From contig CALUTK010000009.1 of the NCBI GenBank assembly GCA_944323675.1, forward strand, positions 1 to 44,238: a stretch of DNA of 44,238 nucleotides, given 5' to 3'. Below are positions 7,647 to 19,953 of the stretch, piece after piece. Position 1 is the stretch's first letter; every line of letters begins with the position of its first letter. Position numbers and translations under genes: made by a program. The notes below the pieces were generated by a model. It was not told the origin of the DNA, ran no database searches, and saw only the letters and a program-made list of their open reading frames with translations. Source of the DNA: Candidatus Gastranaerophilales bacterium. Lineage in GTDB: Bacteria; Cyanobacteriota; Vampirovibrionia; Gastranaerophilales; Gastranaerophilaceae.

Positions 7647-9938
7647 TTAAACTTTTTCAAGTTCAGAGATTGCTGGGTCGAGTAATCTTCTTCCTATATT
7701 TGCAAAATTGATTGAACAAAGAGTTTTGTTGCCGTATTTAATCATCTTTTCAACAACGCCTTCTCCGTATTTAGGGTGAGTAACCCTGTCTCCCTGTTCA
7801 AAAACAGGAATATCTTCCCTCATTGGAGTATCCGCAGGGTATACAGGAACATCAAGTTCTTCCGGAATATTAGACGCCCCTATATTTACATCCTCAATGA
7901 AGTTTAAATCATCTTCCGACAAAACTTCTTCTTCAGGCTCAGATATGAGTTTTGTGTCAAGTTCCTGCTCTGTTTCGGATTCTGTCTCGTAGTCAGCTGC
8001 AGTCGTTTCTGAAGCAGGTTGTTCAGGTTCTTCCTCTATGACAGGCTGTTCTGAATGAACATTGAACATTATTTCATCAACAGCAGCTGCTGCATAGTCT
8101 CTTGAATCTGTAATCTCTTGTATAGGTGAATTCTTTTCATATTCTTCAGTTTTTTCTACATTTTTTTGAAGTTCTTCATCAGACATAAAAGGCAGAATGT
8201 TTTCGTTATAATCTATATTTGGAATCGGTTGAGCTTCACTCTCTTCCAGTATATTTTCTGCAGGTAACTTTGATGTTACTATAGGATTCATTTCCTGTCG
8301 TATGCGGAACGGAACTTCCTTCAAAATATCGTGAGGGTTTTCTGCAATTGTCGGCGTAGGAATTTCGTCAAAATTTTTCTGCGGAGCTTCTTGCAGCGGA
8401 GGCTCTTCTATAACTGGTTCTTCTTCTATAACCGGCTCTTCTGCGGCAATATCTTCATCTATAATATTGCTTATAATTTCAGGTTTTATTTCTTCCTGAA
8501 CAGTTTCCGGTTCCGGTTCTGATTCTGGTTCTTCCGGTTTATCTTCAACAGGTTCTTCTTCCTGTTTCTGTTCTTGAACCGGCTCATCATCTGTTATAAG
8601 TGTTTCATATGAATAGGAATTTGATTCATCCGAAAAATCATCAGGTTTTTCAGGTTCCGGCTGTGCCGGCTCTTCCTGAACATTTGCAGCCGGTGCAGGA
8701 GTTTCTGTTTGGGCAGATTCTTCTTCTACCTCTTCCTGCTGATCAAGTATTGATGATAATTCAATTATCAAAGGAATGTGCTGGGTTGCTTTGCCGTAGA
8801 TAACGTATTCATCCGAGTTTAATTTATTTAAAAACGTATTATAAGATGCAAAATCGTGCTGCAGCGTCTGCGGTGTAAAAAGTATAAGATTGTTTGCCCG
8901 CTCTTTTAATTCGTAAAGATACTTAAAGTTGTGGCTGCAGGCGATTGTTGTATAAATTTTGTTTTTTGTTAGGAAGTGTCGGATGAGCTTTTTATCAGCA
9001 TTATCATTAGTTAACGGAACAAATGAATATACAAACAAATCCATTTCATCAATAGAATCATAAACGTATCTTATTATTTCATTTTGAACGATATCGCTTG
9101 CGGATGAGATATCAAGAATGTTTGTTAAATTTGCACGGATTGCGCTTCTTAATGTATGAATTTCTTTGGCATTCTGTGCAAAAACATTTTCTTCTTTGTA
9201 TTTTAGAAGTTTATTTTTTAACAATACAAGCTCAGTAAGCCCGAGTGCTTTGTACTGTTGGTCTACAACATTTATGAATGTGTCAAACGGAATAAATTTA
9301 TCCAGAACGGTTTTAGAGTATTCCTGAACCTCAAGAAAAATGTCCTGAATCATGGCTTTACTTGCAGGTTCAATGTTATCTAGATCGTGTTCATAGATAA
9401 AGTTTATTGTATCGTAATTGAGCGGAAGTTTGAAATCTTCGCCGAATTTGAGTTTTTGTCCGGCAAATTTACCGTCAGTATCAAAGATTACAGATTTGTT
9501 GTTTTCTGTGCTAAGCTGGAATACAAAGTTTTCAATTAACGTATTGGTATTTTCTTTATTTTCTGAACAAATGAGGAGATTTTTTTCAAGAATAGATCTG
9601 TCTACTTTTAATTTTGCATCCTGATTTGCAAGATAACCTATTTCAATAGGATTGTTAACAGGTAATATATCTAAAAGCTCGTCAGATGTAAGTTTTGTGA
9701 CATCTGCATCCAACGCCGGAATAGTCCCGTCGTAATTTTTAACTATGCCTTCCGCGTCAAATGTAAAAAGAAGTTTGACAATTGCGTAATTGATGCCGTT
9801 GTCGGCTTTTAGGCTTAAAACTTGCGCAACGTAAGGTGATTGCGAATCTTCTATAATTACAAACCCTGACAACAAAAGGTTATCTTCACGATTATATGAT
9901 ATTTTAACAAGGTTATTCTTGATTTCCAGAACTTTCAT
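7647..9938 (-). CDS. HerA-like protein with degenerate P-loop, acidic linker and UvrD-type C-terminal domain
   Basis: 763 residues in three parts. Residues 1-400 resemble the HerA/HAS-barrel ATPases: a beta-barrel N-terminus, IEIGYLANQDAKLKVD, a strand leading into a P-loop position that reads CSENKENT (124-131) instead of GxxGxGKS, then VIFDTDGKF where Walker B-like VIDPHGEY is expected. Residues about 401-700 are a Glu/Pro-rich, disordered-looking linker. Residues 712-763 (QGDRVTHPKYGEGVVEK...) resemble the Tudor-like C-terminal domain of UvrD/PcrA, which binds RNA polymerase in those proteins. Nucleotide hydrolysis seems unlikely, and a scaffold or polymerase-linked role is inferred. It lies 64 bases downstream of yqeK, with GAGGAAT before the ATG. 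Confidence 0.75.
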   Translation of the reverse strand: MKVLEIKNNLVKISYNREDNLLLSGFVIIEDSQSPYVAQVLSLKADNGINYAIVKLLFTFDAEGIVKNYDGTIPALDADVTKLTSDELLDILPVNNPIEIGYLANQDAKLKVDRSILEKNLLICSENKENTNTLIENFVFQLSTENNKSVIFDTDGKFAGQKLKFGEDFKLPLNYDTINFIYEHDLDNIEPASKAMIQDIFLEVQEYSKTVLDKFIPFDTFINVVDQQYKALGLTELVLLKNKLLKYKEENVFAQNAKEIHTLRSAIRANLTNILDISSASDIVQNEIIRYVYDSIDEMDLFVYSFVPLTNDNADKKLIRHFLTKNKIYTTIACSHNFKYLYELKERANNLILFTPQTLQHDFASYNTFLNKLNSDEYVIYGKATQHIPLIIELSSILDQQEEVEEESAQTETPAPAANVQEEPAQPEPEKPDDFSDESNSYSYETLITDDEPVQEQKQEEEPVEDKPEEPESEPEPETVQEEIKPEIISNIIDEDIAAEEPVIEEEPVIEEPPLQEAPQKNFDEIPTPTIAENPHDILKEVPFRIRQEMNPIVTSKLPAENILEESEAQPIPNIDYNENILPFMSDEELQKNVEKTEEYEKNSPIQEITDSRDYAAAAVDEIMFNVHSEQPVIEEEPEQPASETTAADYETESETEQELDTKLISEPEEEVLSEDDLNFIEDVNIGASNIPEELDVPVYPADTPMREDIPVFEQGDRVTHPKYGEGVVEKMIKYGNKTLCSINFANIGRRLLDPAISELEKV

Positions 9939-13693: not shown

Positions 13694-15742
13694 ATGGTTA
13701 GTAACAACAATATTAATTTAAGACAGAATATACCGATGCAGGCAGGGATGCAGCCGCTTCAGGGAATGCAGAATGTTGACGGAGAAAAGATTAAACAATC
13801 AGTAGATAATTCTTATCTGGCAAATCGAGTCAAGGCTTCGACGGACGATGAATCAAATCCTTTTGCAACGCTAGGGGTAGGTACAGCTTTATGGTACGGA
13901 ATCTCTCAAGGGATGGATAAACTTAACCCTAAAATGGAAGGAAAGTATGAAGATACTATTCTCGGTAAAATGGGTGCATGGGGTGATAAGGTTGCGACAA
14001 ATTCAACTAAAGCAGGTATAGGAAAGAAAATTGATACTTTCCTGAGAAAGATGAAAATAGGCTGGTGGAAACTTACTAAGAAAAGTGATATAGCATATGC
14101 TATCCAGAACCATAAGACAAGCCCTGAATGGTCTTTTGCAAAAGTACCCGGAAAAGGTGTTGAAGGTTTTCTTGCTTCTGATACAGAACAGGTGTTTGAA
14201 GAATTTTTGAAGCCGATATCCGGACGTGAACGCAAGCTTAACTTTCTCTTCTTTGATGTTCCGCTCGGAAAGTATAATTCTTACCAGAAACTTGAACAAT
14301 ATGGCGTTGACCAGCGATATATTGATGATTTTGTAAATAAAATCAAGAACTTATCTTTTGATGAAAAAGCGATTGCATTACAAAAAGAAGAACTGAAACT
14401 TCTCGGAGCAACGGATGATGTTATAAACGCGGCTTCAGCAAAAGGTCTTAAGGGCTTGCGTGATGCTGCGTATGAGTTGAAAGTTAAAAAACTCGGATTT
14501 GACTCTAAATCAGCCTATGAAGCAATAAAAGGTAAATTTATTGATAATACAAAAACTGTAATGAATGCACTTTCAAAGGCTGATAAAAACCTTAAGATTT
14601 CAATTTGGCGCAAAAACGGAACCTGGGGCAAAATTAAATCTCACCTGTTTGGCAGGCAGGTTTCTTTGAGTGAATATCATAATAAATACATTGCAACAAT
14701 GGGCAAGGGTAATAAAACTGCGCTTGGAAGATTTTTACCTAAAGCATTCAGCTGGTTCCTTGAAGGTACTACAAACAGATTTGCCGGCGGCAAACTGGCT
14801 GTTGCAATGCAGGCCGGTATCTTTGCCGATATGTTAATCCACTCATTTAAAGCGCCAAGCGGTGAAAAATGGAAAACTTTATCAGAAAGATTTGTAAATG
14901 ATTTCACATACTTTATGGCAATGCCGTTCGGTATCTGGGCAATGCACAAAGTCGGCGGTATGAAATACGCCGGTCTTGATAAAAAAGGGGTGGAAGCATA
15001 CAACAAAGCCCGCGAAGCATTCAATGCAGACGTACGAGCCGGTAAGCTTGCTGATAAGGCGCTTTATAAACAAAGACGGAAAGATTTGAAAAATATTCTG
15101 AAAGCTAATGTTAAAAATCCGATTACACGTTTATTAAAGAAAATCGGCGGATTTATAAACATTGGCAACGAAAAAATTCTCGGTCGCGTATCAAACGCAA
15201 AATGGAATATGAACTTCTTTAGAAAATCCGGAAACTTCTTTAAGAACCTTCTCGGTGTTCCGATGAGAATTGCAATCCCTATGATGATTATCGTTCCGTT
15301 TGTTGCTAAGAATGCAACGAAAATCTCTCACTTCCTCTTTGGTAAACCGACAAAATCAGTACTGGATGAAGATAGTGAAACTTCTCAGGACAAATTAACA
15401 CCTGAACAGCAGGCGCAGATGCAGAAACTTGCAGAAGAATACCAGAAACAAATGCAGACTCAGGCACAAGCTGCAGGTCAGAAAAAGAATGAACAATTTG
15501 TAAGCAATAACAGTCCGACAAATCTTATAAATATGGCTAAAAACGGTAATCCTTATAAAGAAACAATTCCGAAAGTAACGGAGCCTGAACAATTATCAAA
15601 ACCGACATATACATACATACCGTCACCGGAAAGCACAATTATTCCAAATGCGGGCGAAGATTTGACCCCTGCAAATGCAGCGCTTCAAAAAGCTGACGCT
15701 ATGGAACAGAAGGTTGCCGAAACCTTGTCAATGAGGTTGTAA
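13694..15742 (+). CDS. Large basic protein with paired hydrophobic helices, unknown
   Basis: 682 residues, family not recognised. A Met/Gln/Asn-rich N-terminus comes first, then hydrophobic stretches at about 57-74, 363-383, 400-418 and 519-538, separated by strongly basic helical regions. The C-terminal 130 residues are Gln-rich (LTPEQQAQMQKLAEEYQKQ) and disordered-looking. The pattern of a hydrophobic helix ending in Asp/Glu, about 20 polar residues, then a second hydrophobic helix also occurs in the proteins at 18874, 38967 and 40280. AAAGGTAGG precedes the ATG. No signal peptide is seen. An envelope-inserted or exported protein is inferred. Confidence 0.7.
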   Translation: MVSNNNINLRQNIPMQAGMQPLQGMQNVDGEKIKQSVDNSYLANRVKASTDDESNPFATLGVGTALWYGISQGMDKLNPKMEGKYEDTILGKMGAWGDKVATNSTKAGIGKKIDTFLRKMKIGWWKLTKKSDIAYAIQNHKTSPEWSFAKVPGKGVEGFLASDTEQVFEEFLKPISGRERKLNFLFFDVPLGKYNSYQKLEQYGVDQRYIDDFVNKIKNLSFDEKAIALQKEELKLLGATDDVINAASAKGLKGLRDAAYELKVKKLGFDSKSAYEAIKGKFIDNTKTVMNALSKADKNLKISIWRKNGTWGKIKSHLFGRQVSLSEYHNKYIATMGKGNKTALGRFLPKAFSWFLEGTTNRFAGGKLAVAMQAGIFADMLIHSFKAPSGEKWKTLSERFVNDFTYFMAMPFGIWAMHKVGGMKYAGLDKKGVEAYNKAREAFNADVRAGKLADKALYKQRRKDLKNILKANVKNPITRLLKKIGGFINIGNEKILGRVSNAKWNMNFFRKSGNFFKNLLGVPMRIAIPMMIIVPFVAKNATKISHFLFGKPTKSVLDEDSETSQDKLTPEQQAQMQKLAEEYQKQMQTQAQAAGQKKNEQFVSNNSPTNLINMAKNGNPYKETIPKVTEPEQLSKPTYTYIPSPESTIIPNAGEDLTPANAALQKADAMEQKVAETLSMRL

Positions 15743-15873: not shown

Positions 15874-15954
15874 TAAAGACTCTGCTCGCTGCCTGTAATA
15901 ATTTTTCTAGAAACTTTATTGTGGCTCTCAATGTAATGTTTTAATCACTAATTG

Positions 15955-15983
15955 TTGAAAATTACAATAAAAACTGTTATAAT
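15955..15983 (+). promoter_or_regulatory. Strong sigma-70-type promoter of the structured RNA
   Basis: TTGAAA (15955-15960), 17 bp, TATAAT (15978-15983). The predicted start is near 15990, which is exactly the 5' base of the long terminal stem described next. Confidence 0.75.
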
Positions 15984-15989
15984 ATTAAT

Positions 15990-16168
15990 GCTCTGTACGG
16001 GTGTTCAATTTTGTTCCTACATTTATTATAAAAGGGAGAGTTGACTCTGTCAGATATTGAAGTATACCCGCCGAAGTATTCTTCGCCAGCGGGAAACGGA
16101 TTTATCGAGGCGCTCACCCACCTGCGAGACCAGCAGGTAACAAAATCACATTCGCACAGGGCTTTTTT
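15990..16168 (+). ncRNA. Structured non-coding RNA, 6S RNA-like candidate
   Basis: About 179 nt with no ORF. The ends pair over a long range: 15990-15996 with 16156-16162, 15998-16004 with 16148-16154 (one A/C mismatch between), and 16008-16015 with 16139-16146. That gives 22 pairs including a few G-U. U6 follows immediately. Inside are hairpins CCCGC-CGAAG/CTTCG-GCGGG (16067-16092) and CCTGC/GCAGG (16120-16137). Size, closing stem, large centre and a 3'-side hairpin fit 6S RNA, which binds sigma-70 RNA polymerase. Sequence alone does not prove the family. A leader of the downstream cpaE gene is the alternative, though the U-run argues for termination. Confidence 0.6.
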
Positions 16169-16222
16169 ATGCCTTGCTCATTTATGCGAAATATGATAAA
16201 CTCTCTTATAGAAAGGTTTTGT

Positions 16223-17419
16223 ATGTCAGAAAATATTTCAACAGTTATCCTCTCAAAAGAGAGTCGTTTTAAAGAACTTATGTCTCTGTATCTGAAAGAG
16301 TACGGTAATTTTGAGGTTCTGGAAGATTTTTCAGATGATTCTGATATATATAATACCTTATCTTCTCTATCAAAGTCGTTTTTAATTGCAAATATGCAGG
16401 ATAATTCGTTTGATTCGCTGATTTCCCGTATATCTGCAGACTGTCCGAATTGTAAAATTCTTGCCGTGACTGAGAATCCGACAGTTGATTTTATTATTAA
16501 TGCAATGAGGCTCGGTGCCAAGGAAGTTATATCGTCTCCGGTTATAAAATCAGAGTTTTTTGACGTGCTTAAAAAAGTAAAAAATCAATTAAATTCCGAT
16601 TATCAAAAAGTTAATAAATGCAGAATGATAACTATTTTTTCAAATAAGGGCGGAATCGGTAAAACATCAGTCGCTACTAATTTAGCGCTCGAACTTGCAA
16701 GGACAACTAAAGAAAATGTTGCTCTGATAGATTTAAACTTCCAGTTGGGAGATATAACGACATTTTTGGACTTAAAGCCTTCTTTTAACATATCTTATAT
16801 GCTGAAAAATCTGGATAAAATTAACAAAGATTTTTTATTGAACACGCTTGAAAAATATAAAAACACAAGCCTTTACGTGCTTGCGGATCCGCCGTATTTT
16901 AAGCAGGCTGATGATATTTCAGCAAAACAGGTTTCAAAGTTATTTGATATTCTAAAGGAAAGCTTTTCATATATAGTTGTTGATACGGATGCAAGTTTCG
17001 GAGATAAGACGATTACGGCGCTTGATAATGCGGATTTATTATTCCTCGTCACCTGTATTAATCTTCCGGCATTAAGAAATTGTCAAAGATGCCTTGATTT
17101 ATTTGAAAAACTCGGCTACAGTGCTGAAAAAGTTCAGGTTCTGGTAAATAGATATATGGAAAATGACGAAATAAAAGCGGAAGATGCTGAAAAAGTTTTG
17201 AATAAAGAAATTTACTGGAAAATTCCAAATAACTATTTTACGATGATGGCTGCAATTAATAAAGGGGTACCTGTATCAGAGATTAATCCTGCCTCAAATG
17301 TTGCACAGAGCTATAAAGAACTCGCAATTTACGTATCCGACAGTATTCACAGGCATGAACTTATAAAAAAATACTCCAACAATTCAAAAGGCAGTATTGA
17401 TAGTATTCTGAAAGGTTAG
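16223..17419 (+). CDS. CpaE/TadZ-like ATPase with pseudo-receiver domain
   Basis: 398 residues. Residues 1-120 form a receiver-like domain in which the phospho-acceptor position reads FLIANMQD (Asn instead of Asp). A MinD/ParA-type ATPase follows, with deviant Walker A NKGGIGKTS (141-149), LIDLNFQLGD and VVDTDASF. Family members place the Tad/Flp pilus machinery at the cell pole. The start is 16223, because GAAAGG lies 6 bases upstream; an ATG at 16169 falls inside the RNA terminator. It is followed after 4 bases by a CpaF-like gene, but no CpaB, CpaC, TadB, TadC or pilin genes are in the window, so this is a detached pair. Confidence 0.85.
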   Translation: MSENISTVILSKESRFKELMSLYLKEYGNFEVLEDFSDDSDIYNTLSSLSKSFLIANMQDNSFDSLISRISADCPNCKILAVTENPTVDFIINAMRLGAKEVISSPVIKSEFFDVLKKVKNQLNSDYQKVNKCRMITIFSNKGGIGKTSVATNLALELARTTKENVALIDLNFQLGDITTFLDLKPSFNISYMLKNLDKINKDFLLNTLEKYKNTSLYVLADPPYFKQADDISAKQVSKLFDILKESFSYIVVDTDASFGDKTITALDNADLLFLVTCINLPALRNCQRCLDLFEKLGYSAEKVQVLVNRYMENDEIKAEDAEKVLNKEIYWKIPNNYFTMMAAINKGVPVSEINPASNVAQSYKELAIYVSDSIHRHELIKKYSNNSKGSIDSILKG

Positions 17420-18873: not shown

Positions 18874-19875
18874 TTAATTAGTTTTGCCGGCGCCTCGTTT
18901 TATATGCTTTTTCAGATTACTGGAATCAAGCAGGGCTTTATTGAATTTTTCAATACCGGGGTCAATGTAATTGGGCATTACAACTTTTTTCACAAAAGCA
19001 TCAATCGGTTTTATACTGAGAATCATTGCAATAAGTCCGCCGATAGTTTTGAGAAGTTTATTCCCGAACTGGAGTTTGTTAATGTATTTTTTCAGAGAAT
19101 ATCTAAGCGCGTTATTTGCAAAGATTTCCCCGTACGTTTCTTTTAATACAGGGTATTCCCGCATATATTTTCTGTAACTTGAAAGGGAAATTTCAGGCGG
19201 TTTTTTCTTTGCCTGCAGGTCTTCTTTAATCTTTATAAGCATATCAATATTTTCGTCGGCGTAGTTCATAATCTTTGCTTTTTTACAATTAGCGAGGGCA
19301 TATTTACCGCTTAAATTTTTAAAGAATTTTTTCAGCCAATGGTCTGATTGTTTTTCGTTTTTGCAGGCTCTGATTTTGTTTTCTAGAGAATCAGAGAAGA
19401 ATTTTTTAAATTTTTCTCTATCGTCAAATATATCGCCGACGCATTGATCGACAGCATTACTCATATGCAGAAGAGTATCTCTTTTTGCGTTGACACTCAA
19501 TCCTTTGTTCAATAGTTTAGCAATAGGAGAAGTCAGGTTTTGTCCTGCAAGAATTGCGGCAGCAGGAAACACAAAACTGCTTAAACCCTGATAGATTGCC
19601 TGTTCTACTGCTCTTGTCCGGCTCGGGTTATAATGATTTTTGTCGTTTTTATATTTATCGTAAATATCAGCCCCGAGGTACATTAAAGGCGGTATCCATA
19701 ATATCTGGCTTAATTTCGGAGCAATTTCGTATATAGCGGCACCCAGTTCATTTGAATATGACAGTGCCACCATCCATTTTTGATTCAAAGGATCGTGGTA
19801 CTTTTTGCTATTCTGCTTATTTTGTGCGGATTCTGGCTTCTTATTCTGCGAGCCGAATTCTACCGGATAAATCAA
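18874..19875 (-). CDS. Membrane-associated protein of unknown function
   Basis: About 333 residues, not recognised. Hydrophobic helices near IWIPPLMYLGADIY, SFVFPAAAILAG and TIGGLIAMILSI are separated by basic helical stretches. I place the start at a TTG (19875) because AAGGAA lies 7 bases upstream; the ATG 33 bases further up lies in a dispersed hairpin repeat. With this start the N-terminus is (M)IYPVEFGSQN, like other short xxFG N-termini here. It is convergent with the cpaF-like gene, with MITE copy B between them. Topology resembles part of the 682-residue protein. Confidence 0.65.
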   Translation of the reverse strand: MIYPVEFGSQNKKPESAQNKQNSKKYHDPLNQKWMVALSYSNELGAAIYEIAPKLSQILWIPPLMYLGADIYDKYKNDKNHYNPSRTRAVEQAIYQGLSSFVFPAAAILAGQNLTSPIAKLLNKGLSVNAKRDTLLHMSNAVDQCVGDIFDDREKFKKFFSDSLENKIRACKNEKQSDHWLKKFFKNLSGKYALANCKKAKIMNYADENIDMLIKIKEDLQAKKKPPEISLSSYRKYMREYPVLKETYGEIFANNALRYSLKKYINKLQFGNKLLKTIGGLIAMILSIKPIDAFVKKVVMPNYIDPGIEKFNKALLDSSNLKKHIKRGAGKTN

Positions 19876-19902
19876 TTGAAATTTCCTTATTGTTAGTAAT
19901 AC

Positions 19903-19953
19903 CGTCATTCCGTAAGCGTAGAAAATCTGATTTTCAGGCTATGCGGAATCGCA
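19903..19953. repeat. Hairpin repeat (ATTCCG...GCGGAAT type), copy 2
   Basis: ATTCCG-TAAGCGTAGAAAATC and GATTTTCAGGCTAT-GCGGAAT form a tight imperfect hairpin. The same ends occur at 15751 and 15811. It sits just upstream of the membrane gene. Confidence 0.5.

Follow-up and report, generated by a model that had tools for sequence, protein, structure and literature searches.

A predicted 6S RNA gene of cyanobacterial type upstream of cpaE in a Gastranaerophilales bacterium

The stretch of DNA analysed here (the window, 44,238 nucleotides) carries a cpaE-like gene for a MinD/ParA-type ATPase whose nearest relatives are found in Candidatus Gastranaerophilales and Candidatus Scatousia, so that the host is one of the non-photosynthetic relatives of Cyanobacteria. 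The gene starts 54 nt downstream of a compact element on the same strand, which consists of a promoter, a long-range stem and a run of T residues (Table 1). On either side lie two large proteins (13694-15742 and 18874-19908) without Pfam match, which are conserved in the genus neighbours. We argue below that the element is almost certainly a 6S RNA gene that is orthologous to cyanobacterial ssaA and has both a sigma-70-type promoter and a 3' end of its own, as judged from sequence comparison and folding.

Table 1. Features of the 6S RNA locus and the neighbouring gene
Feature	Coordinates	Strand	Basis
Sigma-70-type promoter of the 6S gene	15955..15983	+	TTGAAA-17-TATAAT, TG before the -10; 11/12 consensus matches
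6S RNA gene (predicted)	15990..16168	+	RF00013 full-length match, R1 match, fold z -4.5
P1, terminal (closing) stem, 5' strand	15990..16004	+	Partner 16148-16162; fold and covariation
P2 (downstream helix), 5' strand	16008..16015	+	Partner 16139-16146; fold; helix 3
Central bubble, 5' side	16016..16033	+	Unpaired in fold; likely pRNA template start about C16020/U16021
Apical (internal) arm with hairpins	16034..16118	+	Fold; helices 4-8 with compensatory changes
Central bubble, 3' side, ACCTGC..GCAGGT hairpin	16119..16138	+	Fold; helix 9 95.7% paired
T6 run, likely 3' end	16163..16168	+	Directly after the terminal stem (sequence)
cpaE-like gene (MinD/ParA-type ATPase)	16223..17419	+	Pfam CbiA/AAA_31/ParA matches

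A reading of the sequence alone had placed a promoter at the start of the stem, and the site is indeed close to the consensus: the -35 element (15955-15960) and the -10 element (15978-15983) are 17 bases apart, and the predicted transcription start G15990, seven bases past the -10, is the first base of the stem. In this AT-rich stretch promoter-like sites are not in excess, as ten were found in the region with 9.4 expected. The weight of the promoter therefore comes from its position and its conservation, and the case needed comparison with relatives. Promoters with at least 9 of 12 matches lie upstream of the RNA in 51 of 54 homologues, whereas base shuffles let one expect about 10 of 54. At the other end, the U6 that had been seen right after the partner strand corresponds to the T6 run, and a T-run follows the stem in nearly all homologues. 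The predicted transcript, from the start site to the end of this run, has about 179 nt and is thus inside the length range of 6S RNAs (about 160-200 nt). The earlier range 15955-16168 for the structured RNA is right from about position 15990 onwards; its first part is the promoter and lies outside of the RNA.

Folding returns the 22-pair terminal stem that had been proposed, composed of blocks of seven (15990-15996/16156-16162), seven (15998-16004/16148-16154) and eight pairs (16008-16015/16139-16146), and the stem closes over 173 nt. The minimum free energy is -59.6 kcal/mol as compared to a mean of -41.6 (sd 4.0) for shuffled sequences (z -4.5), and none of the 200 shuffles was that low. The predicted RNA is a rod with a terminal stem, a large central bubble and an apical arm, which is the architecture of 6S RNA, and this shape is kept by covariation. 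Within the 5' side of the bubble TCCT and CA are invariant across the order.

We searched the whole window against Rfam at the gathering cut-off and then the region 15900-16260 at a permissive threshold. No Rfam match was found anywhere in the window at the gathering cut-off. In the permissive search the 6S family (RF00013) was the sole family to appear, aligned end to end (model positions 1-187 of 187 with 15985-16168, E = 5.8e-8). The score of 44.6 bits is 1.8 bits short of the cut-off of 46.4, and at E values up to 10 the 1.8 Mb genome contains no other match to RF00013. As the gathering cut-off is a curation threshold and no biological trait, we maintain the assignment to 6S RNA by means of the other evidence.

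This evidence comes from the relatives. RF00013 matches are present in 49 of 59 related genomes, at one place in 48 of them and at two places in one (G012), and DNA similarity points to the same places. Nearly all relatives searched have one copy per genome. The cut-off is exceeded in only 22 of the 59 relatives, 18 of which belong to other families of the order and four (G016, G019, G021 and G031) to the family of the window. In this family RF00013 thus misses the RNA at its cut-off or gives no match at all in 32 of 36 genomes, which makes the gathering cut-off a blind spot of annotation; it would be repaired by including these sequences in the RF00013 seed. We built a covariance model, R1, from 35 of these RNA sequences alone, with no Rfam sequence. 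R1 scores the window RNA with 171 bits, the window sequence being itself a member of R1, and finds the locus in 55 of the 59 relatives. Of 146 genomes sampled across the phylum, most of which we infer to be Cyanobacteria, 73 have an R1 match. Where R1 and RF00013 both have a match outside the order, they name the same loci, for example in G149 (R1 7885-8007, RF00013 7858-8040) and further in G145, G167, G093, G076, G096, G072, G069 and G080.

R1 also gave divergent candidates where RF00013 has no match (G020, contig C13, 28077-28306; G023, contig C56, 24093-24263; G050, contig C68, 16666-16788). The first one spans 230 nt, as if there were an insertion within the RNA. The second copy in G012 (L051:4757-4938, contig C6) lies beside a gene which we name folP-like from its sequence. 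Its flank is most similar to the locus L059 of another genus, and the G012 genome has 4% contamination; the copy is probably foreign and located on a contaminating contig.

The 35 sequences were aligned with MAFFT without the use of structure, and the consensus structure was then derived from the alignment. In its 42 consensus pairs 94.8% of the cells are paired, as against 80.1% in shuffles and 37-47% when the helices are slid by one to three columns. The covariation score is 0.516, as against 0.238 for the shuffles and at most 0.119 for the slid helices; the slid control favours the consensus structure since the latter was derived from the alignment, but the difference is so large that this bias is unimportant. 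Changes on both sides occur in 26 of the 42 pairs. Much of this signal comes from the outer terminal stem (helices 1-2): all twelve pairs vary, and in ten both partners have changed. P2 (helix 3) is paired in 100% of the cells in the 35 sequences and has an invariant core UUUUG/CAAAA, and at its ends two pairs are changed on both sides (A-U/G-C and U-A/A-U). A lack of covarying pairs in the stem had been named beforehand as the outcome that would speak against a structured RNA, and the stem pairs do covary among the homologues.

The link to the experimentally studied 6S RNAs is provided by an alignment of eight sequences from the rest of the phylum, found with RF00013, with fifteen from the Gastranaerophilales. 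Across all of them 26 columns are invariant. In 20 controls, made by reversing and rotating sequences and aligned in a faster MAFFT mode than the alignment itself, the count is 0-9. The invariant columns include parts of TTTTGNTC, GGG, GTA, GAAA and CCCA.CTG. In common with cyanobacterial 6S RNA are the block of P2 and the 5' bubble, TTTTGATC, GGGA at the base of the apical arm, AGTA and GGAAAC in the arm, and CCCACCTG..CAGGT in the 3' bubble. With the same loci named by R1 and RF00013, the invariant columns argue for orthology. The sequence-only reading of a 6S-like RNA is thus borne out by the end-to-end RF00013 match that it had asked for, by covariation, by the near-universal single copy and by the cyanobacterial alignment.

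Cyanobacterial 6S RNA (ssaA, 6Sa, Yfr7) has been described before (PMC1242208), and in vitro it is reported to be able to replace the E. coli RNA in polymerase binding, inhibition of transcription and pRNA templating (PMC5721685). The RNAs of the Gastranaerophilales share with ssaA the length of about 174-188 nt and the rod shape made up of a closing stem, a central bubble and an apical arm. They differ in the closing arm, which according to the alignment gaps is several bases shorter per side, in the T-run after the stem and in falling below the Rfam cut-off in most of the window's family. The surroundings are also different, as the RNA is found near cpaE or other genes whereas the 6S gene of Synechococcus 6301 lies downstream of purK. 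With Escherichia coli 6S RNA (SsrS) and the RF00013 family the window RNA has the full-length covariance-model match and the architecture in common; unlike these it stays below the cut-off and has its own promoter and T-run. The SsrS transcript of E. coli is shared with ygfA. Free Bacillus subtilis 6S-1 RNA has a hairpin in the 3' bubble (PMC8876501), and a hairpin is likewise predicted at this place in the free form of our RNA.

The proximity of cpaE raises the question whether the element is a structured 5' leader, a riboswitch or attenuator which folds during transcription and at whose U-run transcription stops or passes on into cpaE. The distance of 54 nt on the same strand would fit, as would the conservation of this order at less than 90 nt in 40 of 80 cpaE loci. 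The position is, however, not fixed. The RNA is present in 58 of the 80 loci; besides the 40 close ones there is one at 167 nt, twelve have a gap of 0.8-2.1 kb, three have the RNA on the opposite strand at a distance and two are cut by the end of the contig. In many genera and in all other families tblastn detects no cpaE relative in the stretches fetched around the RNA, and different genes lie next to the RNA in other genera. Moreover, an extended -10 (TGNTAWVAT) lies between RNA and cpaE in 26 of 39 intergenic regions, compared to 0.9 in shuffles; in several relatives just 6 nt separate it from the aligned cpaE start. The corresponding site of the window is a weak one, reading TATGAT, or TAAACT after TTGCTC. 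In many relatives cpaE thus appears to be a separate transcription unit with its own promoter. Since the RNA occurs elsewhere without cpaE and cpaE appears to have a promoter in relatives, and given also that P1 is a long-range stem enclosing the entire RNA and that the family match is to 6S, a leader of cpaE is in our view very unlikely. Transcription running on into cpaE had also been named beforehand as an outcome that would speak against the reading; the cpaE promoter of the relatives and the genomes with the RNA away from cpaE bear on it indirectly, and some read-through from the 6S gene into cpaE is possible.

Just as improbable in our judgement is a 6S-related RNA with another mode of polymerase binding, for example to the core enzyme as stated for Ms1 of Actinobacteria (PMC9130861). 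Ms1 has a 6S-like shape and is itself associated with RNA polymerase. The score below the Rfam cut-off and a central bubble whose sequence departs in its details from that of E. coli would be compatible with such an RNA. Against it stands the direct alignment with cyanobacterial 6S RNA, a homologue of which binds E. coli RNA polymerase, inhibits transcription and templates pRNA in vitro (PMC5721685). Finally, a TTG frame of 51 codons (16041-16196) is open and could in principle be translated into a small protein. This frame begins within the RNA and extends beyond its end, indels of one and two bases occur here among the homologues, and the pairs are kept by compensatory changes, so that we attach practically no probability to a small protein gene. 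On the minus strand a near-consensus promoter inside the RNA, CTGACA-17-TATAAT (16053-16025), would start transcription close to the expected pRNA site; as the full site is present in only 3 of 35 sequences we regard it as a chance occurrence, and the mean score of the antisense -10 in the bubble is 4.69 compared to 4.50 in shuffles.

For the 6S RNA of the window we infer by homology that it inhibits the sigma-70 holoenzyme and is released by pRNA synthesis. The RNA would mimic an open promoter and be bound by the housekeeping sigma-70 holoenzyme, which would then be blocked for transcription under nutrient scarcity. When nucleotides are available again the polymerase could copy the 5' side of the bubble, leading into P2, into a short pRNA of about GUAGGAACAAAAU..., or one base longer. 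In analogy to the 6S RNAs of E. coli and B. subtilis the start is likely at C16020 or U16021. Synthesis of the pRNA would unwind P2 and thereby free the enzyme. When we blocked the pRNA site in silico P2 opened and the rest was unchanged; no new helix was predicted, unlike in B. subtilis 6S-1 RNA with its central bubble collapse helix. One may speculate that 6S RNA has been retuned in the host-associated Gastranaerophilales, with pRNA start and release proceeding without a collapse helix and with the adjacency of cpaE coupling polymerase sequestration to the cpaE operon via read-through, but we consider this improbable.

The result is an unannotated 6S RNA of cyanobacterial type in the non-photosynthetic sister lineage; the RNA family is known and the finding is ordinary in kind. 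In the literature searched, which left most subscription papers outside, we found no paper joining 6S RNA with Melainabacteria or Gastranaerophilales. The assignment places a global regulator of transcription in a large lineage of gut bacteria that are related to the Cyanobacteria but not photosynthetic, and the comparison allows one to test which parts of the cyanobacterial 6S RNA go with photosynthetic life.

Several relatives have, at the same loci, a prepilin-like gene that contains a run of ten G and is situated between the 6S gene and cpaE. The leaders of prepilin-like genes (..FTLAEVL..) of the Gastranaerophilaceae contain poly-G runs of 8-12. In all 13 such genes of the fetched loci (L088:4180-4960, L090, L101, L011, L021, L056, L071, L103, L115, L116, L209, L219 and L222) the ATG that has a ribosome-binding site lies in another frame than the mature prepilin. 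This suggests pilins controlled by slippage, either phase-variable or transcriptionally slipping, with assembly errors in the G runs being possible as well. Poly-G runs are present in 19 of 20 genomes sampled. Four runs in the genome of the window (G000), all outside the window (C13:5491, C27:719, C46:12960 and C53:9666; loci L188, L197, L254 and L256), fall within the signal-peptide part of proteins that look secreted, and three of the four are out of frame.
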